The notes beneath the pieces are model-generated. The model saw only the letters and a program-made list of their open reading frames with translations. It did no database searches and was not told where the DNA came from. This document shows positions 9,237-34,216 of a stretch of 64,000 bases of DNA, piece after piece; positions within the stretch are counted from its first letter, which is position 1, and each line of letters starts with the position of its first letter. The translations under genes and the position numbers were made by a program. Origin of the DNA: Phycisphaerales bacterium (GTDB lineage: Bacteria; Planctomycetota; Phycisphaerae; Phycisphaerales; UBA1924). The stretch covers positions 1 to 64,000 of the forward strand of contig JAJDDC010000035.1 in assembly GCA_029260515.1 (NCBI GenBank), written 5' to 3'.

Positions 9237-12200
9237 TCAGGGGCAGCCTGCGCCGAACGCGACGAGGAACTCGAACACGTCGGAGTAATCGAAGACGCCT
9301 AGCGGCTCGGCGAGGTCTGCGGCTGGTTCTGAGTTGCCGAATGCCACCAGGAACGCAAACACGTCGGAGTAATCTAACACACCGTACGGCTCGGCCAGGT
9401 CGGCCGCGTTGCACGCGCCCCCGCAGGACACGTCGACGATCTGCAACCCGCTCGACCCGTCAACGACGTACGCGACTGATCCAGAGACGCGTATGCCTTG
9501 CGCGGCGTCCGGAGTGTCCACAGAGCCAAGAAACACGGGACTAGCAGGGTCACTCACATCGAGTACTTGGAGTCCATTTGCATAATCTGCTACGTATACC
9601 GTGGTGCCAGAAACTGCGATGCTAGATGCTCTATCCGGCGTCTCGACCGTGGCGATGATCTCTGGCGATGAAGGATCGAACACGTCAATAACGACCAAAC
9701 CCGATCCATGATTCGCCACATATGCGACCGCACCAGAGACCGCAACATCCAGGGCGAGTGATGGTGTGTCCACCGAGCCCAAGATCGTGGGGGTTGTCGG
9801 ATCGCTTACATCAATCACCTGCAGGCCTGCGGTGAGGTCCGTTGCATATACCAGAGATCCTGATACTGCGACGCTGCTCATCGAGGTGGGCGTATCCACT
9901 GAACCGAGTATGGTCGGGTTCGCCGCGTCGCCAATGTCGATCACTTGCAGGCCCGAGCCGCTATCCGCCACGTACGCCACCGAGCCCGAAACCGCTACAC
10001 CCATGGCGCGGTCTGGCGTGACCAGCGAACCGAGAATGGTCGGGTTCGCCGGGTCGCCAACGTCGATCACTTGCAAACCCGAGCCGAAATCGGCCACGTA
10101 CGCCACCGAACCCAAAAGCGCTACGCCTCTGGCGCGGTCTGGCGTGTCCACCGAGCCGAGAATGGTCGGGTTCGCCGGGTCGCTCGCATCAAGTATCTGC
10201 AGGCCCGCTTCGCCATCTGCAATATAGACCTGTGATCCCGAATACGCGACGCCGTACGCATAGTCAGACGAATCGAACGAGGCCAGAATCAACGGATTCA
10301 CTGACTCACAAGACTCGCATGCATCGAGTTGCCCGTTGCCGTCGCTGTCCTCTTCCGATACCCCGAGCGCGTCGGCGAGCAGTTCCAGGTCGATTTGATT
10401 GGCGATCCCATCGCCGTCAAGATCCTGCTCTTGCTCTGGCAGTCTTACATATGTGCAAAGGTCATCCGTGTTCAGTAGGCAGTCGCCGTTGATGTCGGAA
10501 TTAATCCAGGTTCCAGTCCGGACCGTGCCGAAGAACGCGTGAGCGGCCCCGTCAACGCCGGCATCGAGTCGGAATGACAGAACTCGTGTGCCGCCGAGCT
10601 GTGGGATGGAGAGTGAGAAGAACTGACGTACACCCTGCTCGTCGTCAGCTCGCTGATCGAGAGATGTTTGCTGTTGGCCCTGCCAATGTGCCGTGAGAAA
10701 ACCATCGGTTCCGGGCGAGCTGAATCCCGCATCGAACCCGACCGCTGAGATCATCCGATCGATAGGTATCTCGAAGCCAACCCAGTGGCTGTCTGGTCCC
10801 GACTCGAGCTCGAAGAACGGATCGCCGGTCTGGAACGAGACTTCGCCACTTCCCCCATCCGCCATTGTCAGCTCATCGAGCGCGATCGTGTCTCGGTGCA
10901 TTACCAGCACGCGTCCCGAGTCACAATCATCGATGCGTGCTTCGCATCCCAGGTCGAAGTCCCCGTCCCAGTTGAACAGTTCGCCGCTGTCGTCGTAGTG
11001 CCCGCCCTCGACAAGCGGCCAGTTGATCCCTCCGGCGTACGCTCGGCTGGCTTTGAAACCGAGCGGTAGCCTGCTCCCACCGGGGCTCAGGAACGCGTTG
11101 TCGTCGAGCCAGCTGGCCCCAGCATTTGTCACGGAATCCCGAAACCAGACCCACGGCAGGCCGTGATCATGAGCGTTCCCGCCAGGGTTCCAGGGATAAA
11201 TGCTCGCAGTCGGATAGTTCGAGTAGGTCACGTTTCGGCAAGAAATATCTGCGTTAAATGCGTGGTCGAGCTCGATCGGACTTTGTGTGAAGGGCAGCGG
11301 GACCCGAACAATGTACGGAGGGAGACGGACTGGGATCTGTATCGATGGCGTGTCGTCGTAGTAGTTGAACACGTGGGCCGCAAATCGGCCCGCTACTACC
11401 GGAGTACTATCTTCATGAAATATTGGAGGGAGAAACGCGTCGAGTAGGTGTAGTGTGACCTCTGCATCGCTGCCCTGAGACGCCAGTTCACGCGCAAAGG
11501 TATCGCCGATCCAAGACCCAGCGGAGTGCGCAACGATCTCAATATGGGTATACGGCAGACGGGCGTTGATGAACTCGTTCGCAAGACTACGACCGATGAG
11601 CCGTGCGTTTGTGAATGCAGCAGACGGGCTGGAGTTGAGGACGCCGTCGCCTGCATCCGCCGTCCAGTCCAAATACGCGACATCCCACAGTTGGTCATCG
11701 GACGAGGGCGGCCCCGCGATATGGTCCGCGGTATCAGTCGCGATATCCACCACCCACGGATGGAGGTCCAGAAGATCTTGTGAGGCGGGGAGCGGCCCGT
11801 TCCAGCCGTGCGTGACAAGGAATAGTCTGTTCGGACTCGACCCGGCTCGTACAAACGTCAGATACTGCAACGCATCCTCGATCTCAATCGGTTCGATCTC
11901 CACATCCGGCTGGTCCTCGACGGCTGTCTCAACGACAGTGACAAGACCGCCTGCAACTGATCGTTGAGCCAGATCTCCGCCGAGCTGCTCTGCCCACAGG
12001 CTATAGGTGCCGGGAGCGACATCGGCGACGTTGAATGATGTCTGATTGACTGCAGGAGACGTGGCGATTGACGCAGGCAATGGGATTGCAACGCCGGGTT
12101 CGTTCCAGGGATTACTGACCAGGTCCTCATCGAGATAAAACCGGATTTCTTCGAACGCTTGATCGCCGTCAATCCAGTGGATGTCGAACGCATCACCCTG

Positions 12201-12929
12201 GACCACTCCAATACTCACCGAAGGTTCTGTGATCTGGAGCTCGGGCAGCAGCCGGACGTTGTCGATCGTGCCAGAGACGAGCGCCCCGACTGCTTCATCG
12301 CCAGCGAAGCCGATCGCGGAGCCGCCGCTCGTCAGTCTGGAATCAAATACTTCCACCAGTGGCTCAGTAGGTCTCGGCTGAGAGATCTCCCATGCGCGAA
12401 GAGTTAGTTGAGACCCATGCGCCTGCGCCTCGAGAATCCAGGTCTCGCCTGGTGTATATGCAACCGGGAATGAACCAAGCTCCTCTTCAACCCCCATTGT
12501 GTAGTCGAGCAACTCGATGTACGCCCGCCCCTCATCAGAGAGTACGAAACCGAGGTAGGACTCCACTTCCTCGAAGAACGGGTCATACTGGACACGCAAC
12601 CCGATTCCAGCGTCTGTCCCCGGATCGGCACGAACCTCTGCGATCACAGTCCCATTCACGAACAGGTCGGGATACAAAAACGAGTCCACGTAGCCGATGA
12701 AGAGCTCGTCGCCAAAGTTCAGCTGCGATGTCGTGATCGAAACCCTGCCGCCGTCCACGGTAAATGAACCCGATGGGGGAAGCGCGAGTTCGTCCGATTG
12801 CCACTCGGGCAAGAAGCTCCCATCGTCGAAGTCATCGAGAATCGGGAAGTCATGAATTGTGGGCTGGGCAATCGCTGGCCAGCACGCCAGCGCCGAAACG
12901 AAAACCGAGATCAGTAGCCTGCTGTGCAT
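9237..12929 (-). CDS. Secreted alpha/beta-hydrolase-like protein with LVIVD repeats and GC-type dockerin
   Basis: A 1230-residue exported protein. Signal peptide MHSRLLISVFVSALACWPAIAQ sets the start at 12929. Regions in order: a beta-rich lectin-like domain (about 25-265); an alpha/beta-hydrolase-like domain with LVTHGWNG (near 375) and the nucleophile elbow AHSAGS (near 468); a further beta domain; a dockerin/EF-hand-like calcium segment (DINGDCLLNTDD, DLDGDGIANQID) around 825-880; seven 42-residue LVIVD beta-propeller repeats (889-1168); and a C-terminal GC-type dockerin pair (1173-1230) ending GCP. Lipase or esterase activity is plausible but the substrate is unknown. Sequence composition is less GC-rich than the core genes, and the repeat units are highly alike at DNA level, suggesting recent acquisition and duplication. 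Confidence 0.85.
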   Translation of the reverse strand: MHSRLLISVFVSALACWPAIAQPTIHDFPILDDFDDGSFLPEWQSDELALPPSGSFTVDGGRVSITTSQLNFGDELFIGYVDSFLYPDLFVNGTVIAEVRADPGTDAGIGLRVQYDPFFEEVESYLGFVLSDEGRAYIELLDYTMGVEEELGSFPVAYTPGETWILEAQAHGSQLTLRAWEISQPRPTEPLVEVFDSRLTSGGSAIGFAGDEAVGALVSGTIDNVRLLPELQITEPSVSIGVVQGDAFDIHWIDGDQAFEEIRFYLDEDLVSNPWNEPGVAIPLPASIATSPAVNQTSFNVADVAPGTYSLWAEQLGGDLAQRSVAGGLVTVVETAVEDQPDVEIEPIEIEDALQYLTFVRAGSSPNRLFLVTHGWNGPLPASQDLLDLHPWVVDIATDTADHIAGPPSSDDQLWDVAYLDWTADAGDGVLNSSPSAAFTNARLIGRSLANEFINARLPYTHIEIVAHSAGSWIGDTFARELASQGSDAEVTLHLLDAFLPPIFHEDSTPVVAGRFAAHVFNYYDDTPSIQIPVRLPPYIVRVPLPFTQSPIELDHAFNADISCRNVTYSNYPTASIYPWNPGGNAHDHGLPWVWFRDSVTNAGASWLDDNAFLSPGGSRLPLGFKASRAYAGGINWPLVEGGHYDDSGELFNWDGDFDLGCEARIDDCDSGRVLVMHRDTIALDELTMADGGSGEVSFQTGDPFFELESGPDSHWVGFEIPIDRMISAVGFDAGFSSPGTDGFLTAHWQGQQQTSLDQRADDEQGVRQFFSLSIPQLGGTRVLSFRLDAGVDGAAHAFFGTVRTGTWINSDINGDCLLNTDDLCTYVRLPEQEQDLDGDGIANQIDLELLADALGVSEEDSDGNGQLDACESCESVNPLILASFDSSDYAYGVAYSGSQVYIADGEAGLQILDASDPANPTILGSVDTPDRARGVALLGSVAYVADFGSGLQVIDVGDPANPTILGSLVTPDRAMGVAVSGSVAYVADSGSGLQVIDIGDAANPTILGSVDTPTSMSSVAVSGSLVYATDLTAGLQVIDVSDPTTPTILGSVDTPSLALDVAVSGAVAYVANHGSGLVVIDVFDPSSPEIIATVETPDRASSIAVSGTTVYVADYANGLQVLDVSDPASPVFLGSVDTPDAAQGIRVSGSVAYVVDGSSGLQIVDVSCGGACNAADLAEPYGVLDYSDVFAFLVAFGNSEPAADLAEPLGVFDYSDVFEFLVAFGAGCP
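9426..10265 (-). repeat. Seven in-frame 126-base repeats encoding LVIVD blades
   Basis: Each unit encodes 42 residues of the type AVSGSVAYVADxGSGLQVID followed by xxDPANPTILGSVDTP; the last unit stops after 28 residues. Units 2 and 3 are nearly identical in DNA, the outer ones more diverged, which fits tandem growth from the middle of the array. The repeat period equals one LVIVD/beta-propeller blade, so about seven blades would close a propeller. This is protein repeat DNA and not a CRISPR array. Confidence 0.9.
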
Positions 12930-12977
12930 GACAATCACAATATCGTGTGCGAGCCTGGAACAAAAGCGCAAGGGAGG

Positions 12978-14389: not shown

Positions 14390-14578
14390 CTACCTCGAGT
14401 TCGCGTGCTCGCTCGCGCTCAGCAGAAGCCTGAAGTCGGCCAGATCGATCACACCCGAGAGATCGAAGTCCGCCTGCGGCGAGCCAGAGCTGAGGTTGGA
14501 GAGCAACACTGCAACATCCGCCGAGGTCAACGCGCCGTCGTTGGTCAGATCGAACGCCACAGCCAGAGTTTTCGGTTC
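14390..14578 (-). pseudogene. C-terminal dockerin fragment
   Basis: The frame ends with two dockerin/EF-hand-like repeats: FDLTNDGALTSADVAVLL and FDLSGVIDLADFRLLLSA, then SEHANSR and a stop. Upstream the frame runs into the leader of the flavoprotein gene and encodes nothing sensible, so this is the surviving tail of a secreted protein whose body has been lost. It is of the classical dockerin type (D-x-T/N-x-D-G), unlike the GC-type tails elsewhere here. Confidence 0.65.
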
Positions 14579-14668
14579 AAGCAGCGACCTTTGTTGCGCA
14601 TGCCCGAGTGTGTATGCTGGGCGTTCCCGCCCTCCCCCCGAGGGGCGGCGCCCGGCCCGGAGGATGTG

Positions 14669-16405
14669 ATGCATACCAGACGTGACTTTGTAAAAACCGG
14701 TCTCGGCGCCGTCATGGGCGCCATGACGGGCGGTGGCCTAGCGCACGCGGGCCTCGGCATGCGGGCGATACCGGGGCTGCCCCCCGGGTGCGACACCGGC
14801 TCGCTGCCCCTGGCAGGGACGCGGCCGCTGATCTCGGCGCCGCTGTCGACAAAGCCTCTGGTCTACGGCGGGTTCAACTTCGCGCCCTGGTTCACTGGCG
14901 ACGCGTTCCCCGACGGGAACATCCCGTTTCACTCGGCGCAGAACGTGTTCCCGCCCGGGCGATTCCCGCGGGCGACCGAGCACGTCGAGGTCGCGGTCAT
15001 CGGCGGCGGCATCTCGGGCCTCTCCGCGGCGTACCTGCTGCGCCGGTTCAACCCGGTCGTGTTCGAGCTGCGCGATCGGTTCGGTGGATCGGCGCAGGGT
15101 GAACACTGGGATGGATCGCCCTACTCGCTCGGCGGCGCCTACGTCATCACGCCCGACCCGGGCACGAATCTGCACACGCTGTACCACAACATCAACCTGC
15201 ACCAGCAGGTCCGCGTCGATAACGACGATCTGACGGTCGAGCTCAACGGCGAGGTGCTCGCCGACTTCATGAAGGGCGCGGGCTTCCCGCCCGAGGACCT
15301 GCCCGGGCTCGAGGCGTACCTGCAAGTGCTCAACCAGATGGCGAACGTGTCGTACCCCGACGTCCCCTTCGACCAGCCATGGATGCAGGCGCTGGACCTC
15401 AAGACGTTCAAGAACGACATCGAGCAGCAGATGGGCGTGCCCGTGCCGCCGCTGCTCGCCTCGGCGATCCAGGCGTACTGCTACTCGTCGTTTGGCGCGG
15501 GCTGGGAGGAGATCTCGGCGGCGAGCGGGTGGAACTTCCTGGCCGCGGAGGTCTTCGGGCGCTGGGTCTTCCCGGGCGGCAACGCGTACATGGCCGACCG
15601 CCTGTGGGAGGAGCTGTCTCTGCTCGACGCCAAGACGCCGCCCGGCTGCACGCCCAAGCACATCCGCGGCGGGTGCCGCGCGGTGGACGTGCGGATGGCC
15701 CCCAGCGGTCGCGTGCACGTGACGTACCGGGACCGCAACGGGCGCGGGCGGGCGCTCGAAGCCGAACGGGTGGTCATGGCGTGCTCGAAGCACATCGCCA
15801 AGCACATGCTGCACAACATCGAGCACCTGGACCCGGCCAAGCTCGCGGCGATGGACATCGAGTACCGGGCGTACGTCGTCGTCAACGTGCTGCTCGACCA
15901 GGAGATCCCGCCCGAGTTTTATGACATCTTCCTGCTCCGCGACGGGCAGTTCCCGCACGACGTCGGCGAGGCCCGAGAGTATTTCTACTCGACCGACGTG
16001 CTCGACGGGAGCTTCACGCCCTCGCACCTGCCGCCGGCCCCGGGCCCGCGGAATGTGCTGACGTTCTACTGGCCCCTGTCGTACCCGCAGGGGCGGTTCG
16101 AGATTATTCTGCACGACCCGTTCGAGCGGTTCGCCGAGGCGTTCGCGGCCCAGCTGCGCGACGAGGTGCTCCCCCTGCTCGGGATGCCCGAGTCGGCGGT
16201 CCGCGAGATCCGCCTGACGCGCTGGGGGCACGCGATGCCGCTGGCCGAGCCGGGGTTCATCGCCTCGGGCAAGCCCCAGGAACTGCTCCGCCCCTTCGAG
16301 GGCAAGGTGTACTTCGTCAACCAGGACAACTGGGCGCTGCCGGCGGTCGAGAACTGCGTGATCGATGCGCATAACGTCGCCGACGAGATCGCGACCGATC
16401 TCTAG
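14669..16405 (+). CDS. Tat-exported FAD-dependent oxidoreductase (amine-oxidase-like)
   Basis: A 578-residue flavoprotein. The N-terminus MHTRRDFVKTGLGAVMG has the twin-arginine pattern RRDFVK followed by a hydrophobic stretch ending AHA, so the folded, cofactor-loaded protein is probably exported by Tat. VAVIGGGISGLSAAYLL (108-124) is the dinucleotide-binding fold, with ELRDRFGGSAQG behind it as in flavin amine oxidases. The C-terminus FVNQDNWALPAVENC ... DAHNVADEI fits the second FAD-contact segment. GGAGG five bases before the ATG fixes the start. The substrate is unknown. The GH13 gene follows after 25 bases, so the two are probably cotranscribed. Confidence 0.85.
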   Translation: MHTRRDFVKTGLGAVMGAMTGGGLAHAGLGMRAIPGLPPGCDTGSLPLAGTRPLISAPLSTKPLVYGGFNFAPWFTGDAFPDGNIPFHSAQNVFPPGRFPRATEHVEVAVIGGGISGLSAAYLLRRFNPVVFELRDRFGGSAQGEHWDGSPYSLGGAYVITPDPGTNLHTLYHNINLHQQVRVDNDDLTVELNGEVLADFMKGAGFPPEDLPGLEAYLQVLNQMANVSYPDVPFDQPWMQALDLKTFKNDIEQQMGVPVPPLLASAIQAYCYSSFGAGWEEISAASGWNFLAAEVFGRWVFPGGNAYMADRLWEELSLLDAKTPPGCTPKHIRGGCRAVDVRMAPSGRVHVTYRDRNGRGRALEAERVVMACSKHIAKHMLHNIEHLDPAKLAAMDIEYRAYVVVNVLLDQEIPPEFYDIFLLRDGQFPHDVGEAREYFYSTDVLDGSFTPSHLPPAPGPRNVLTFYWPLSYPQGRFEIILHDPFERFAEAFAAQLRDEVLPLLGMPESAVREIRLTRWGHAMPLAEPGFIASGKPQELLRPFEGKVYFVNQDNWALPAVENCVIDAHNVADEIATDL

Positions 16406-16430
16406 AGCCCCGACGACGCGAGGACAACGC

Positions 16431-18032
16431 ATGACACGCACCGGGATCTGCGCCGCGATCGTGGCCGCTACCGCGACCAGCCCGTGCCTTGCCGGCCCCG
16501 AATGGTGGCACGAGGCGGTCTTCTACGAGGTTTTCGTCCGCTCGTTCGCCGACTCGCAGACGGGTCCGCTCGCGGGCGACGGCGTGGGCGACATCCGCGG
16601 CCTCATCGACAAGCTCGACTATCTCAACGACGGCGACCCGGGCACCGACGACGACCTGGGCGTCACCGCCCTCTGGCTCATGCCCGTCTTCCAGTCACCC
16701 AGCTACCACGGGTACGACGTCGTGGACTACGAGAAGATCGACGACGAATACGGCGACAACGCTGTCTTCGCAGAGCTGCTCGACGCGTGCGAGGACCGGG
16801 GCATCCGCGTGATCGTGGACATGATCCCCAACCACTGCTCGTGGCAGCACCACTGGTTCAAGGAGGCCCGAGACCCCGCGTCGCCGCGCCACGACTGGTT
16901 TGTCTGGGAAGACGAGCCGCTCACCGGCGAGGGGGCGCCCAACCACAGTGTCTGGCACGACGAGGCGATCGGCACGACCGGGAAGTACTACTACGGCTTC
17001 TTCTGGCACGGGATGCCGGACCTCGATCTTCGCGAGCCGGGCCCGACGCTGGCGATGTACGACGCCGCCCGACACTGGATCGAGATGGGCGTGGACGGCT
17101 TCCGCCTCGACGCGGTCAAGCACCTCATCGAGGACGGCGTGGTCTTCGAGAACACCGACGAGACCATCGCCTGGCTCGAGAAGTACAACACACACGTGCA
17201 CGACGTCGGCGAGGGCGTGTTCACCGTCGGCGAGGTCTGGGACACGACCGAGCAGGTCAAGCGGTACGTGCCCGACGGGCTCGACTCCGCCTTCGAGTTC
17301 TCGACGTGCTTCGCGATCGAGAAAGGGATCAACGAGTCGGACGCCGCCCACATCCGCGCGGCGCTCGACGAGGCCTGGGTAGCCTACGCGGGCGACCAAT
17401 CTACTTTCATCGGCAACCACGACATGGACCGCCTCGCCAACCGCCTTGGCGGTGACCGCGCCCGCATGGCGTGCGCGGCGACGGTCCTGCTGACTACCCC
17501 TGGAGTTCCGTTCATCTACTACGGCGAGGAGATCGGCATGCAGGGCGCCAAGCCCGACCCCGACATCCGCACGCCCATGCAGTGGTCCGACGACCCCGCG
17601 ACCGGCGGGTTCACCACCGGCGAGCCGTGGCGGGCGGTCAACGCGGACGTCTCGCAGGTCAACGTCGCGGCGCAGGAAACGTCGTCCGACTCTCTGCTCT
17701 CGCACTACCGCAAGCTGATCCGGCTCCGGGGCGAGCACGCCGCCCTCTCGGTCGGCGATTACGAGTCCGTGGACACGGGCGACGAGCGCGTGCTCGCGTT
17801 CGTGCGCAGCCGCCAGGGCGAGCGATTGCTCGTGGTCGTCAACATCTCGGGCGACGCGGTCACCGGCGGCTGGGGCGTGGACGCGGGGGCCCTGGGCGTC
17901 GGACCCGACGCACAGCCCGAGGAGATCCTCAACACCGCAACGGTCACCGCGCCCGGTATCGCCGATCAGACCGACTGGCGCCCGCTGGGCACGCTCGCCC
18001 CTCGGACGGGCTACGTCGTACGCCTGCCATAG
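16431..18032 (+). CDS. Secreted GH13 alpha-amylase-family glycosidase
   Basis: A 533-residue protein with a short signal peptide (cleavage near CLAG-PEWW). All four GH13 regions are readable: VDMIPNH (129-135), DGFRLDAVKH (222-231) with nucleophile D227, GEVWD (267-271) with acid/base E268, and IGNHDMDR (327-334) with D331. The opening WWHEAVFYEVFVRSFAD and the late TPMQWSDDPATGGFTTGEPW segment resemble oligo-1,6-glucosidase or trehalose-type members more than classical endo-amylases, so exo- or transglycosylating action on short alpha-glucans is a fair guess. AGGA lies nine bases before the ATG. It follows the flavoprotein gene and converges with a second GH13 gene ten bases away. Confidence 0.92.
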   Translation: MTRTGICAAIVAATATSPCLAGPEWWHEAVFYEVFVRSFADSQTGPLAGDGVGDIRGLIDKLDYLNDGDPGTDDDLGVTALWLMPVFQSPSYHGYDVVDYEKIDDEYGDNAVFAELLDACEDRGIRVIVDMIPNHCSWQHHWFKEARDPASPRHDWFVWEDEPLTGEGAPNHSVWHDEAIGTTGKYYYGFFWHGMPDLDLREPGPTLAMYDAARHWIEMGVDGFRLDAVKHLIEDGVVFENTDETIAWLEKYNTHVHDVGEGVFTVGEVWDTTEQVKRYVPDGLDSAFEFSTCFAIEKGINESDAAHIRAALDEAWVAYAGDQSTFIGNHDMDRLANRLGGDRARMACAATVLLTTPGVPFIYYGEEIGMQGAKPDPDIRTPMQWSDDPATGGFTTGEPWRAVNADVSQVNVAAQETSSDSLLSHYRKLIRLRGEHAALSVGDYESVDTGDERVLAFVRSRQGERLLVVVNISGDAVTGGWGVDAGALGVGPDAQPEEILNTATVTAPGIADQTDWRPLGTLAPRTGYVVRLP

Positions 18033-18042
18033 GGCCCGCGCA

Positions 18043-20796
18043 TTAGGGGCAGCCGGCGCCGAACGAGGCGAGGAACGCGATCACGTCGGAGAAGTCGAAC
18101 TGACCGATGGGCTCGGCCAGGTCCGCCGCCGCGTCCATCGAGCCGAACGCGGTCAGAAAAGCGATCACGTCGGAGAAGTCGAGCACGCCGAACGGCTCGG
18201 CGAGGTCCGCGGGGCAATCCGAGGCGCCGAAGGGTAGCTGCACGACGATCGCCCGCCCCGAGTGCTCGAACGCGACGAGCGTGATCACGTGCGCCCCATC
18301 GCCCGGGTTCGTGAACGTCTTGCGCCACTCGAGCCGGTCCCAACGCGAGGCGGCGTTGAAGATGTCCGCCTCATCGACCGGGTCGAGCCCGGGCGCCAGG
18401 TCGAGCATCGCGTGCACCGCGGTGACGGTCCGGTCGGGCGTGCGGATCTGCAGCTCGACGTCGCCGCCCCCGCCGCGTCCCTCAAGGCCGGTGACCTCCA
18501 GGGGCGCCTCCTCGCGGTCGATGAACACGACCTCGCGGAACTCACGGTACAGGGGCGAGCCCGATGTCCGGTGGCGGAAGGCGATCACGGAGATGTAGTG
18601 GAAGCCCTCGGCGAGCTGTGTCGCGTCGATCTCCTGCGAGTACACGCCGGTCGTCCCGCCCGAGCCAAACGTGGGCTGGTTGATCGTCGTGAACTCCTCG
18701 TACGCGCCGATGACGGCGGCAGACGGTGCGTAGTCGATCACGCCGTTGCCGTTCCAGTCCTGGGTCCCGGCGTCGATCTTGAAGAGTGCGTTGTCGTCGG
18801 TGTTCGCATCCAGCCCGTCGGTCTGCGACGTGTTGAGCGTGATGCGGAAGGTGTCGGCGGAGACAACGGGGATGTCGTTGAGACGCCGGAAATATGCCGG
18901 GAAGTTGGTCGGGTCGGCGGGGATGACGCCCGACTGGTTCGTGATGACCAGCGTCCCCGTGGGCAGCGCCTCTGAGTAGACAACGTACCCCTTGGCGTGC
19001 TCGGTCCCTGTCGTCGAGAGGTTCCGCGGCACGACGAGGTTCACCGCGCCCCCCGGGCCGACCGTGATCACGTCCGGGATCGCGTTGATCGGGTCCACGA
19101 TGGGGTCGGCGGCGTTGCCCGTCTGCTCGTGCAGGCGCGTGCCCTGTGGGTAGCTCGTCGTGACGCTGATCGCGTTGACGCCCGCGTCGTACCGATCATT
19201 CACGGCGACCAGGCAGTTTGCCTGCCCGTTGATCGCACGCTCGAAGACCAGCACGTCCGAGATCGAGGCGTTGAGCTGGAAGTACTGGCCCCGCCCGACC
19301 TCGTTGTGCAGGCGGACGAGGGTCGTGATCGTGTCATCAAGCAGGTTCGCGGATGGGTCGAGGCCCAGGGCGATGGACACGCCCTCGCGTGGGAAGAAGC
19401 CGGACGAGCGCGGCACGCCCCGGGCGTGGTGGTACACGAGCGACCGGCCCGGGGCGAGCAGGGTGAACGCGTGCTGCGGGTAGCCCTGCTGGCGGGCGGT
19501 GGGCAGGACGGGCATCGACGACCCGTTGCCCGTCGTGCCGTTGTCGTGGCTGAAGACGTGGTTGACACCCAGCGAGCCATTAATCAGCCCGTCGTCGGCA
19601 AGGTCCAGGCGCCCGGAGTCGGCGTTGGAGAACAGGCCGTTCCAGGAGCCGAACCCCGCCGCGTTGAGCACGTCGCGGAGGCGCCCGGCGCCGTTGAGGT
19701 CCAGCGCGTCGCGGTTGGCGAACGCGTCCTTTCGGGTCTGGTTGTCGCGGATGTCAAAGTTGCCTGTCACGTTCTCGCCGAACATGAAGGGCACGACCTT
19801 GTCGCCCCACGGGTCTGTCCGCGCGTCATGGACCGCGGCGTCAAAGAATGTGTCCCAGAACCACGTCTCCTGGTGCTTGTGCGCGTCGAGGCGGAACCCG
19901 TCGATCCTCTGGACCTGGAGCATCCACTGCGCCCAGCGCATGAGCATTCCGGTCGCGTTGTCGGTCACGGCGTCGCCCGCGAGCGGGTCCGCGTCGTTGA
20001 AGGGGAAGCGTGTGTAGTTGAAGACGGTCGGGTTGCGCGACGTGCCCGGGTTGCTGATCGCGTCAGGCGTGAGCGCGTCATCGGGGTAGAAGCGGGCGTT
20101 GCCCGCGTCGGGCATGTTCCAGATCGTCCCCGCCGGGATGTTGTCCGGGTCGCCCGGCGTCACCGGCTGGCGGATGTACTGGTTGTTCTCTTCGGGTGCG
20201 ATGTCGATCAGCGCGACCAGGTCGCCCTTGGTCAGGTTGTAGTTCGCGCCGCCCGGGTTCTCCGACTGGAGGTATCCCAGGGCGTTGCCCGCGTGGAAAT
20301 CACCCCAGTCGTCTGTTGGCAGTTTGTTGCGGGGCGGGGACTCGCGCGGGATCCAGAACCCGGGCCAGCCGCCCTGGGCCAGGAAGACGTCGGAGGTGGT
20401 CCTGCCCGAGTTGTGGTTGAAGATGCCGTCAACGAAGACCTGGGCGTTGGCCCGGTGCATTTCGGCGATCATGGCGCCGAAGGACTCCTCGGTGCCGTAC
20501 GTCGTCCGCTCGCGCCCAGAACCGGTCGCGTTGATCGGCGGCTTGCCCAGGTCGAAGCGGTCGAACGGGTCGTACCCCGGGCTCTGGTAGCTCGCCTTGG
20601 AGGGCGGGGGCAGCCAGACCGCGTTGTACCCCGCCAGGAAGAAGTCGGGTGTGCGCCGCTCGATGTCGTCCCACTCCACCTCGAACCACTGCAAGAACGC
20701 CGGGTTGTCCTGGCCCGTGGCGGGCGGCGTGAATCCTGCGATCAGGGCGAGGGCGCCCACCGCTGACAGACCGATCCTGGCACGATTCACATGCAT
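18043..20796 (-). CDS. Secreted GH13 alpha-amylase with GC-type dockerin
   Basis: A 917-residue exported enzyme. The signal peptide ends near PPATGQ. The catalytic barrel carries VDGIFNH (122-128), DGFRLDAHKH (299-308; nucleophile D304), FGEN (339-342; acid/base E341) and FSHDNG near 413. A C-terminal half of beta-sandwich character follows, and residues 861-917 form the duplicated GC-type dockerin, CPADLAEPFG ... GAGCP. The tail implies that the enzyme is anchored or assembled at the cell surface. The start at 20796 has GGAG ten bases upstream. Transcribed divergently from the GH31 gene, with a shared 271-base control region. Confidence 0.92.
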   Translation of the reverse strand: MHVNRARIGLSAVGALALIAGFTPPATGQDNPAFLQWFEVEWDDIERRTPDFFLAGYNAVWLPPPSKASYQSPGYDPFDRFDLGKPPINATGSGRERTTYGTEESFGAMIAEMHRANAQVFVDGIFNHNSGRTTSDVFLAQGGWPGFWIPRESPPRNKLPTDDWGDFHAGNALGYLQSENPGGANYNLTKGDLVALIDIAPEENNQYIRQPVTPGDPDNIPAGTIWNMPDAGNARFYPDDALTPDAISNPGTSRNPTVFNYTRFPFNDADPLAGDAVTDNATGMLMRWAQWMLQVQRIDGFRLDAHKHQETWFWDTFFDAAVHDARTDPWGDKVVPFMFGENVTGNFDIRDNQTRKDAFANRDALDLNGAGRLRDVLNAAGFGSWNGLFSNADSGRLDLADDGLINGSLGVNHVFSHDNGTTGNGSSMPVLPTARQQGYPQHAFTLLAPGRSLVYHHARGVPRSSGFFPREGVSIALGLDPSANLLDDTITTLVRLHNEVGRGQYFQLNASISDVLVFERAINGQANCLVAVNDRYDAGVNAISVTTSYPQGTRLHEQTGNAADPIVDPINAIPDVITVGPGGAVNLVVPRNLSTTGTEHAKGYVVYSEALPTGTLVITNQSGVIPADPTNFPAYFRRLNDIPVVSADTFRITLNTSQTDGLDANTDDNALFKIDAGTQDWNGNGVIDYAPSAAVIGAYEEFTTINQPTFGSGGTTGVYSQEIDATQLAEGFHYISVIAFRHRTSGSPLYREFREVVFIDREEAPLEVTGLEGRGGGGDVELQIRTPDRTVTAVHAMLDLAPGLDPVDEADIFNAASRWDRLEWRKTFTNPGDGAHVITLVAFEHSGRAIVVQLPFGASDCPADLAEPFGVLDFSDVIAFLTAFGSMDAAADLAEPIGQFDFSDVIAFLASFGAGCP

Positions 20797-29870: not shown

Positions 29871-31979
29871 ATGCGATTGAGAACTCTGACCCCGGCCGCC
29901 ATTCTCGCGGCCCTCGCGGGCGGCGCGATCGCGCAGCCCACAATCGACGGCATCTACGACCCGGGCACGGAGGGGGCCTTCTACTCCGACGTCCTCTGGG
30001 TCCAGAACCAGCCCACCGGCTTCGGCGACAACCAGACCGGCGACTTCACCGGCGGCGACTTCGGCGCCCCCCCGGAAGACGTCATGACCGGCGTCGAGAT
30101 CTGCATCCCGCTGACCGCCATCGGCGGCGCGCTCGAGGGCTCGGGCGGCACTTCCGCATTCCAGCTCGCGGGCTGGGTCAACTCAGGTGACCGCACGTTC
30201 ATGTCGAACCAGATGATCCACGACGGTGGCCTGCCCATCGACACCGCCAACATCGGCAACGCGCCCGACTTCACCGCCCTCGGCGGTGTCCAGCACGTCG
30301 CGATCACCGCCAACGCCGGCGCGATCGTTGTCGACGGCACTCTCGACGCCAACTACGGCCTCCCGCAGATGCTCCAGACCAACTTCACCGGTTTCGGCGA
30401 CTCGACCGACGGCACCGAGATCGGCGGCGGCGGCTCCGAGGCCGACGCGGTCTACGCCGCGACCGACGGCGTCAACCTGTACCTCTTCATCGCCGGCAAT
30501 CTCGAGGCCAATGGCAACGGGCTCGACCTGTACATCGACTCCGACGCCAACGGCGCCACGGGCGACGTCGTCCTGGGCGCGGGCGCCGGCGCGGGCGCCT
30601 TCATCATCGACGGCCAAACCGGCCTCGCCTTCGACGCCGGCTTCGGCGCCGAGTTCGTCGTCTCCGCCGATTCCTGGAACGACGACGGCGACGACGGCAC
30701 CACCCCCAACATCCCCCGTCTCCACGCCGGGCCCATCGGCGGCGCGATCGCCGACATCGGCTCGCTCGCCGGCTTCGGCGCCGCCAACGCCGGGGCGCTC
30801 ACCGCCGGCTACTCCATGGGCGTCGACAACTCCAACGCCCTGGGCGTCATCGGCAGCCCCTCGCTCGCCTCGCCCGTCGCGCCCGACGCCAACTGGGCGT
30901 ACGGCTCCGAGCTGTGCAACGTCCGCTCGTACCTGGACATGGACGAGGGCCCCGTCGTCTCCGGCAGGCTGTACATCTTCATCGGCGGCAACATGGAGTC
31001 CTCTTACAACAAGCTGAGCCTCTTCATCGACTCGCAGCCCGGCGGGCAGAATGTCCTCCGCAACGACAACGTCGACATCTCCTTCAACGGCATCAACCGA
31101 CAGTCCGACCTCGTCTGGGACGAGGCCTTCAGCCCCGACATGTGGTTCAACGTCAACAACGGCGTCAACGGCGGCTCGGGCAACCTCGAGAACTTCGCCG
31201 ACTCCACCACCCTCCGCACCGACGGCCCCATCTTCGACCCCTTCTTCGGGCTGCTGGCCGATTACGGCTCCTTCTCCGGCGGTGACCTCACCGACGGCCA
31301 GGGCAACCCCGTCGCCATGCCCGTTGAGCTGATCGACTTCTCCGGCCCCCAGTTCGACGAGCAGGACGGCTTCCTCGCCGCCCTCTACGCCGGCTACGCC
31401 CCGCGCAAGAGCTCGCAGGTCGGCCTCGACATCCTCAAGGGCAACCTCCCCTCGGGCTCCCTGCCCCCCGAGGGCCTGCTCCAGGTCTCCATGAACAACT
31501 CCAACGTCGATGGCGTCACCGCTTCCGACGCCGCGGTCCCCAGCGTTGCCGACGCCCCTAATGTGAACACGGGCATCGAGATCTGCATCGACCTGTGCGA
31601 GCTCGGCTGGGACGGCGTCCAGGACATCCTCTTGGGCGGCTACATCACCGACGGCGGATTCGGCTTCGTCTCCAACCAGGTCCTCGGCGGCCTGCCCGAT
31701 TCCGAGGCCCCCGCGGTCAACCTTGGCGAGGTCCACGACATCGACTTCACCACCATCGTCGGCGACCAGTACGTCAACCTCACCCCGCCGACGCCCGGCG
31801 GGTGCAACGGCGCCGACCTGGCAGTCCCCTTCGGCACACTCAACTTCGACGACGTCGTCGCCTTCCTTGTGTCCTTCGGCGGCAACACGGCCGAGTCCGA
31901 CCTCGCCGTCCCCTTCGGCACCTGGAACTTCGACGACGTGATCGCCTTCCTGACCCTGTTCGGCGGCGGTTGCCCGTAA
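29871..31979 (+). CDS. Secreted surface protein with DOMON/CBM9-like domains and GC-type dockerin
   Basis: A 702-residue exported protein. The signal peptide MRLRTLTPAAILAALAGGAIAQ sets the start, with GGGAG upstream. Two related beta-sandwich units are visible: VVDGTLDANYG ... LYLFIAGNLEANGNGLDLYID, and LYIFIGGNMESSYNKLSLFID. They resemble carbohydrate-binding CBM9/DOMON folds of planctomycete surface proteins. A third theme (GVEICIPLTAIGG, GIEICIDLCELGW) opens and closes the body. Residues 645-702 are a GC-type dockerin variant (ADLAVPFGTLNFDD) bracketed by cysteines and ending GCP. No enzyme motif is seen, so a binding or structural role is likely. A strong terminator follows. Confidence 0.85.
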   Translation: MRLRTLTPAAILAALAGGAIAQPTIDGIYDPGTEGAFYSDVLWVQNQPTGFGDNQTGDFTGGDFGAPPEDVMTGVEICIPLTAIGGALEGSGGTSAFQLAGWVNSGDRTFMSNQMIHDGGLPIDTANIGNAPDFTALGGVQHVAITANAGAIVVDGTLDANYGLPQMLQTNFTGFGDSTDGTEIGGGGSEADAVYAATDGVNLYLFIAGNLEANGNGLDLYIDSDANGATGDVVLGAGAGAGAFIIDGQTGLAFDAGFGAEFVVSADSWNDDGDDGTTPNIPRLHAGPIGGAIADIGSLAGFGAANAGALTAGYSMGVDNSNALGVIGSPSLASPVAPDANWAYGSELCNVRSYLDMDEGPVVSGRLYIFIGGNMESSYNKLSLFIDSQPGGQNVLRNDNVDISFNGINRQSDLVWDEAFSPDMWFNVNNGVNGGSGNLENFADSTTLRTDGPIFDPFFGLLADYGSFSGGDLTDGQGNPVAMPVELIDFSGPQFDEQDGFLAALYAGYAPRKSSQVGLDILKGNLPSGSLPPEGLLQVSMNNSNVDGVTASDAAVPSVADAPNVNTGIEICIDLCELGWDGVQDILLGGYITDGGFGFVSNQVLGGLPDSEAPAVNLGEVHDIDFTTIVGDQYVNLTPPTPGGCNGADLAVPFGTLNFDDVVAFLVSFGGNTAESDLAVPFGTWNFDDVIAFLTLFGGGCP

Positions 31980-33332: not shown

Positions 33333-33493
33333 CCCCAGGCCCGAATCCTGCTCGCACCGGGGATCCCCCCACCCGGTTTTTTCCCCTTCCGGCGCCCGTC
33401 ATACACCTGTAAGCTGTCTGTGAGAATGAGACGCCCTCCCCGTGGGAGAGGCGCGAGAGAGAATTTGTATCTTTGAGTCGTAGGAGAAGAGAG

Positions 33494-34216
33494 ATGAAGC
33501 GAGCCATCATCGCGGCCGCGGTCGCCGGGCTGGCGTGTTCCGCCGCCTCCGCGGACGTGTACAACGACAACGTGGGTGGGACCGCTGGCGGCGGCGACCT
33601 GCACCAGTTCTTCGCCGACCAGGGATTCAACCATCTCGACATCTCGAGTGTCGAGATCACCAACGACAACCAGTTCCTCTACATCAACATCTCCACCGAT
33701 GGCCTCGTCTCCGATCAGAACTGGGGCAAGTACATCGTCGGCATCGACACCGGCGCCAACGCCGGCGACAACTCCACCGATCCCGGCTCCTGGAACCGCA
33801 ACGTCGACTGGGGCCGTGGCATCACCCACTTCGCCGGCACGTGGGCCGACGATGGTGGCGCCCTCCAGTTCGGCGGCGAGCTGCGTGGATTCGACGGCGT
33901 CGGCTGGAACCTTCTCGGCGCCACGTACAACGGCGACACCAACATCGCCGGCACGTCCGCCTCCGGGCAGATGATCCAGATCGAGTACGCCGCCCTCGGG
34001 CTCTCGATCGGCGATACCTTCGAGTTTGACGTCTTCTCGTCCGGCGGAGGCGCTGACCCCGGTGTCGATCACCTCTCACGCTCGGACGCCGCCACCACAG
34101 ACTGGGGCACCACCTCCGTCGCGGGCAACTTCCTCAGCTACCGCATCGTCCCCGCCCCGGGCACGCTCGCGCTGCTGGGCCTCGGCGCCCTCGCCGGCGT
34201 CCGTCGTCGCCGCTGA
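33494..34216 (+). CDS. PEP-CTERM exported protein
   Basis: A 240-residue secreted protein. The signal peptide ends near SAASA. The C-terminus VPAPGTLALLGLGALAG followed by VRRRR is a PEP-CTERM sorting signal: a VPAP motif, a hydrophobic helix and an Arg cluster. Such proteins are cut and released or anchored by an exosortase, which is not in the window. The mature part has no cysteine and shows repeated D/N/G-rich turns typical of beta-sandwich surface proteins. GGAG precedes the ATG. A long leader (from about 33400) and a strong terminator downstream suggest an abundant, separately transcribed mRNA. Confidence 0.87.
   Translation: MKRAIIAAAVAGLACSAASADVYNDNVGGTAGGGDLHQFFADQGFNHLDISSVEITNDNQFLYINISTDGLVSDQNWGKYIVGIDTGANAGDNSTDPGSWNRNVDWGRGITHFAGTWADDGGALQFGGELRGFDGVGWNLLGATYNGDTNIAGTSASGQMIQIEYAALGLSIGDTFEFDVFSSGGGADPGVDHLSRSDAATTDWGTTSVAGNFLSYRIVPAPGTLALLGLGALAGVRRRR

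Follow-up and report, generated by a model that had tools for sequence, protein, structure and literature searches.

Dockerins are known mostly through cohesins and cellulosomes. In cellulosomal dockerins, the residues at positions 11 and 12 (module numbering) are pivotal for cohesin recognition, and symmetric residue pairs permit dual binding (PMC5301203); in the dockerins of R. flavefaciens, hydrophobic residues dominate at module positions 11 and 15 (PMC5429695). By our own reading of these two papers (PMC5301203, PMC5429695), module position 11 corresponds to loop position 10 in the numbering used here. A further family, the "GC-type dockerin" (dockerin_GC; NF041540.1, curated cut-off 29 bits), is named in NCBIfam; no paper using this name was found in the literature searched, and as far as that literature shows the family has a name there and no description.

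Three secreted proteins encoded in the window (the whole stretch of DNA that was analysed, 64,000 nucleotides) carry tails of this family (Table 1). With a probability of about 0.6, we read the tail as a dockerin-like plug, clasped by a disulfide and two-faced, that would fit a partner matched to the species and not recognisable as a cohesin. At the level of sequence, the comparisons below establish the homology of the tails to others with canonical calcium loops, a conserved cysteine pair, dialects peculiar to individual lineages, coupling between the two repeats of a tail, and the lack of a recognisable cohesin.

Tail-bearing proteins and the search for a partner

Table 1. Tail-bearing genes of the window and the features of their tails.
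Feature	Coordinates	Strand	Basis
P0002, secreted alpha-amylase-family protein with tail	18043..20796	-	Translation, PF00128, orthologues up to 73% identity; likely start 20796
P0002 tail CPADLAEPFGVLDFSDVIAFLTAFGSMDAAADLAEPIGQFDFSDVIAFLASFGAGCP, GC-type dockerin	18046..18216	-	NF041540.1, 44.0 bits
P0002 repeat 1, P-x-G loop of 13 residues, ligands 3 and 5 lost	18169..18207	-	Alignment with canonical orthologue
P0002 repeat 2, P-x-G loop of 13 residues	18085..18123	-	Translation and comparison of amylase tails
P0002 tail, N-terminal bracket Cys codon	18214..18216	-	Conserved in relatives, whether calcium loops are present or absent
P0002 tail, C-terminal bracket Cys codon (GCP end)	18049..18051	-	Penultimate Cys in 149/158 tails of the genome
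P0001, secreted, LVIVD beta-propeller and hydrolase-like part, with tail	9237..12938	-	Translation, Pfam
P0001 tail	9240..9413	-	NF041540.1, 38.3 bits
P0003, secreted, no other family match, with tail	29871..31979	+	Translation, profile searches
P0003 tail	31803..31976	+	NF041540.1, 30.2 bits
Weak dockerin-like frame lacking the Cys pair, outside the tail set	14390..14674	-	Dockerin_1 14.8 bits, below 22.9

The earlier note had described a duplicated motif (D-L-A-E/V-P-x-G-x-x-D/N-F/Y-S/D-D) in P0001, P0002 and P0003, with a cysteine near the start of each tail and a closing GCP. The motif is indeed present in six of six repeats (DLAEPYGVLDYSD and DLAEPLGVFDYSD in P0001, DLAEPFGVLDFSD and DLAEPIGQFDFSD in P0002, DLAVPFGTLNFDD and DLAVPFGTWNFDD in P0003, by translation), and each of the three tails begins at the cysteine and has GCP directly before the stop. 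All three score above the NF041540.1 cut-off. None of the three proteins matches Pfam Dockerin_1 (PF00404) up to E 1, and a PDB sequence search with the tail profile returned no match. What had been called a classical dockerin fragment at 14390 proved to be a 94-amino-acid frame that scores below the Dockerin_1 cut-off (Table 1) and is probably a remnant. A second alpha-amylase-family gene, which has no tail (16365-18032, +), meets the tail end of P0002 (18043) head-on across a gap of about 10 bases.

The window's genome (3.83 Mb) contains at least 150 NF041540 matches (150 of 211 candidates scored), so the three window tails are not a chance occurrence. Among 158 distinct tails read, 149 have the closing Gly-Cys of the family, with Cys as the last residue but one, and 132 end exactly in GCP; a Cys stands 2-4 residues ahead of the first Asp in 130 of 137 two-repeat tails. 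Ten named relatives have from 34 to more than 150 tails per genome. The tails are attached to a wide range of proteins: FG-GAP and LVIVD propellers, subtilases, M12, M14 and M64 peptidases, GH16, amylases, and the choice-of-anchor B, Q and Y families. A signal-like N-terminus is predicted for 112/155 tail frames, compared with 40/584 of the remaining long frames in that DNA and 1/155 reversed tail proteins. The carriers are thus unrelated and mostly secreted, which supports a tag for docking or anchoring of general use, in line with the sorting or docking tag of the earlier note.

The position of the module bears on the first alternative, in which the tail is a C-terminal sorting signal comparable to those of type IX or PEP-CTERM systems, read and perhaps cleaved by a dedicated machine. 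Most of the 166 modules parsed in the window's genome are C-terminal (159), with the stop codon usually only a few residues on, commonly after the exact GCP noted above; among the carriers, moreover, are choice-of-anchor families that use other C-terminal signals elsewhere. Four modules of this genome, however, are N-terminal and directly behind a signal peptide, with copies also in the relatives G013 and G046, and six of seven such N-terminal modules have the closing Cys; the tail is therefore not an obligate C-terminal signal. Further points against a sorting signal are that the tails have neither a hydrophobic segment nor a basic end, that two equivalent faces (see below) would be unexpected in a linear signal, and that exosortase occurs in tail-rich and tail-less genomes alike. 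We consider a sorting signal unlikely. The N-terminal modules (L056, with three frames; L064; L172; L180) precede metallopeptidase-like or alpha/beta-hydrolase-like domains.

Exosortase, examined as possible tail machinery, was found in 48/48 genomes of the order, tail-bearing or tail-less, and was rejected in that role. For type IX, SprA/Sov was found in 0/48 genomes by a search whose control was likewise silent everywhere. Adjoining the tail genes in the window is a PEP-CTERM protein (33473-34216, +; TIGR02595 19.5 bits, cut-off 16), and because exosortase is also universal in the order, two C-terminal anchoring systems coexist. A PEP-CTERM-like hydrophobic segment or basic cluster is absent from the GCP-ending tails; the exceptions are three proteins in which such a segment comes behind the tail. 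These three are LVIVD-propeller proteins (L031:2858-4606, +, and two minus-strand frames of L062) whose tail is extended by GRY[FL]Y[RH]P and then by a hydrophobic end rich in Arg. This end looks like a membrane anchor, which would make them candidate membrane-held members; the one such protein tested had no NCBIfam match to PEP-CTERM.

The earlier note had found no obvious partner in the window, and the same applies to the whole genome: the cohesin family (PF00963) has no match even at E 10, at a completeness of 94.45% that leaves a small gap. At E 0.001, cohesin is absent from 15 of the 16 tail-rich genomes of the family, and the sole match is below the cut-off. Cohesin was rejected as the partner on a search of PF00963 across 248 genomes of the class, in which cohesins are mostly found in other families with few tails.

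The lack of a cohesin at any threshold in the window's genome would also suit tails that bind each other, with a symmetric face making homotypic contacts in a surface layer and no separate receptor. Such a face would likewise force both repeats, and all carriers of a species, to change together, and the few single-repeat tails with both cysteines could pair between chains. Known dockerins, however, bind a different module, and we regard self-binding as quite improbable.

Loop form and the cysteine pair

The tail of P0002 was compared with that of its orthologue in G225 (54% identical), in which DLAEPFGVLDFSD aligns to DVNGDTRT-DTLD. Relative to this canonical loop, one residue is inserted and ligands 3 and 5 are replaced, while Asp 1, 9 and 12 are kept. 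The earlier comparison with the classical D-x-N-x-D-G loop was thus right about the replacement of two calcium ligands, and needs correcting as to length: the tail loop has 13 residues, one more than the classical form. In the window's genome, 132 of 156 tails have 13-residue loops in both repeats. We infer that calcium may have been lost in the P-x-G tails, which might still bind it through, for example, backbone carbonyls.

The history of the loop was followed in 51 parsed amylase tails (from 50 Phycisphaerales-type MAGs and the window). Two canonical loops occur in 38 of these and at least one P-x-G loop in 13; the L206 tail, read by eye, has two P-x-G loops. A quick tree implies a minimum of two changes of loop type in repeat 1 and of five in repeat 2 (at least seven changes in total), and the helix face next to the loop was unchanged while the loop type switched. 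In L192, for instance, repeat 1 has a calcium loop and repeat 2 a P-x-G loop, with the helix face NLQDVFAYL in both. The face is therefore not determined by the loop type. The family also has a third class of loop, which is much longer (ADIANTDGDPTPDGVIDNGDF, AGNPDGTPDGLLNFFDV) and was seen in L090 and L186 (G119) and in L246, L256 and L266 (G251). One record titled "Cyanobacteria bacterium CYA" (L207; RHKP01000005.1) contains an amylase and tail of Phycisphaerales type, which the tree places inside the Phycisphaerales, and is probably a mislabelled or contaminated MAG.

Two cysteines bracket the module, as the earlier note had proposed and as far as sequence can support: both are present in 271 of 291 modules from nine genomes, and they tend to vanish together (Fisher p 1.4e-4), a few of the 291 rows being parser misses. 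Their joint loss fits a bond between them, and the two probably form a disulfide clasp. Single-repeat tails are rare in the window's genome (about five) and keep both cysteines; those of L052, L059 and L082 (e.g., CSAADLAPPFGVLDFSDVFDFLVAFGTGCP) might link one chain to another. Additional cysteines, in many cases a further pair, occur in some tails (L037, L065, L079, L082), either elsewhere inside the module or at its second repeat.

The earlier note went further and suggested that a disulfide could have taken over from the calcium clamp, the ligands having been lost. The near-universal pair and the joint behaviour of its two cysteines are in keeping with this, but the same pair is found with full calcium loops: relatives with complete DxNGDG loops have it, as do 50 of the 51 amylase tails, even though 38 have two canonical loops. 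P0002 and its G225 orthologue share the two cysteines despite differing in loop type, and the switches of loop type in single repeats of the amylase tree left the cysteines unchanged. The pair is therefore independent of the loop change. As the cause, replacement of calcium by a disulfide is contradicted and has very little probability left; it would survive only in the form that an older disulfide tolerated the loss.

Species dialects and the paired repeats

Within a genome, tails are alike regardless of the protein that carries them; between genomes they differ. The dialect of the window's genome is DLAEPxGxLDFSDVxAFL; that of the genus g2 is DGDGxLTIFDFLAFQNLF, that of G225 is NGDTVVNTLDVLAFLNAF, and G189 and G185 share DGxLDFFDVQAFLN. 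When orthologous carriers from different lineages are paired (39 pairs that share proteins and are not fully independent; the carriers are on average 44% identical), tail identity is 0.47. Compared with unrelated tails from within their own genome, the tails of these carriers reach 0.66 and 0.65, and 37 of the 39 pairs show this direction.

The dialects were also put to a test of prediction in genomes new to the analysis (the three best loci of each of ten): if a dialect belongs to the genome, the amylase tail should indicate which residues unrelated tails carry there. In nine genomes (28 tails), the residue agreed with that of the genome's own amylase in 79% of repeats at position 10 and in 82% at position 11, compared with 18% and 17% under shuffled genome labels, and none of 2000 shuffles reached the observed match. 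Many tails of relatives, those of this test included, are top profile hits, a sampling that favours uniform tails. The tenth genome, G251, stands outside this count, with agreement in 8/8 repeats at position 10 and in 0/8 at position 11.

Codon usage was examined for traces of copying. Same-residue codon identity among tails is 0.645, compared with 0.581 expected from the codon usage of the carriers, and exceeds 0.9 in only 58 of 9180 tail pairs (9 expected from shuffles). These near-equilibrated synonymous codons point to constraint on the protein rather than recent copying, and gene conversion was judged a minor cause of the dialects at the codon level.

In each of the two repeats, loop positions 10 and 11 carry the most information on lineage (1.33 to 1.36 bits), the sole rival being position 3, a lost ligand. 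Within the 51 amylase tails, the same residue occupies both repeats in 92-94% at position 10, 80-82% at position 11, and 86-92% at positions 13 and 14. This matching exceeds shuffles with an overall z of 10 to 14 (13.7, 12.4 and 13.7 at positions 10, 11 and 14), and no matching above shuffles was seen at positions 2, 4 and 8. On the tree, the changes at position 10 coincide (13 in repeat 1, 14 in repeat 2, 14 jointly); the corresponding counts at position 4 are 18, 24 and 35. Conservation and coupling together point to recognition residues of the type I dockerin style at positions 10 and 11, with the two repeats symmetric in this respect. Positions 13, 17 and 20 may belong to the core, in which case part of the coupling may reflect packing between the repeats.

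Conversion between the two repeats was rejected as the main cause of their coupling, the codon excess within tails being too small: in the window's genome, codon identity is 0.70 between the repeats of one tail versus 0.65 between different tails, and the difference in other genomes is 0.02 to 0.09. That the dialects are a mere by-product of copying, through gene conversion or the spread of one tail with no partner involved, draws on the small excess of tail pairs that are near-identical in their codons but conflicts with synonymous codons close to the carriers' usage and with the divergence of positions 2, 4, 15 and 19 while 10, 11, 13 and 14 are locked between repeats, and we give it hardly any credence.

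Proposed mechanism and comparison with known systems

In the mechanism that we favor, that of a dockerin-like plug, two loop-helix repeats would pack as a symmetric pair, probably clasped by the disulfide between the bracketing cysteines. Each repeat would present the same face, made up of positions 10 and 11 in the loop and 13, 14, 17 and 20-21 in the helix, and the plug would probably be bound in two orientations, as are cellulosomal dockerins. The face would be read by a partner, probably on the outer surface and in a version of its own in each species. This putative partner would hold more than 100 unrelated secreted proteins to one residue code, and a change in it would change both repeats together. 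The loop beside the face would have a structural role in which calcium and P-x-G loops are interchangeable, the P-x-G form having spread to nearly all tails in the lineage of the window.

We advance more tentatively, at somewhat short of even odds, the broader proposal of a cohesin-independent docking system of the Phycisphaerales, in which at least 100 secreted proteins per genome would carry a disulfide-clasped, two-faced plug for a surface receptor of another fold, with a species code at the classical recognition sites and dispensable calcium loops. A dockerin recognition face is seemingly used here on well over 100 unrelated proteins per genome although no cohesin can be recognised, and the tail set of an entire genome has undergone loss of calcium ligands. 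The dialects offer a ready test for a candidate receptor, which must discriminate residues 10 and 11. Such a receptor, if found, would explain the surface display of secreted enzymes in these uncultured bacteria, and could yield calcium-independent docking pairs.

Among known systems, PEP-CTERM/exosortase serves a different group of secreted proteins of the window's genome and shares choice-of-anchor carriers with the tails, which differ from it in having no hydrophobic segment or basic end. The "Planctosome" of freshwater Planctomycetes is likewise a proposed non-cellulolytic cohesin-dockerin system in this phylum, although that proposal includes cohesins, whereas the window's genome has none that is recognisable and a far larger tail set (PMC6461901). 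Like type I dockerins (PF00404), the tails have two loop-helix repeats with invariant D1 and D12, and like those with a dual binding mode they have symmetric residues at positions 10 and 11 (PMC5301203, PMC5429695). They differ from PF00404 in the absence of a Pfam match, in the loss of ligands 3 and 5 and a loop one residue longer, in place of two 12-residue DxNxDGxxDxxD calcium loops, in the Cys bracket, and in having more than 150 carriers of varied function in a genome where no cohesin was found. With NF041540 dockerin_GC the window tails share duplicated repeats and a closing GC motif, and they score above its curated cut-off; its members in relatives have mostly canonical calcium loops, whereas nearly all loops in the window's genome have the 13-residue P-x-G form. 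Three features appear to be novel: the P-x-G loop, the repeated switching between it and calcium loops, and the dialects by which species differ at the sites of recognition.
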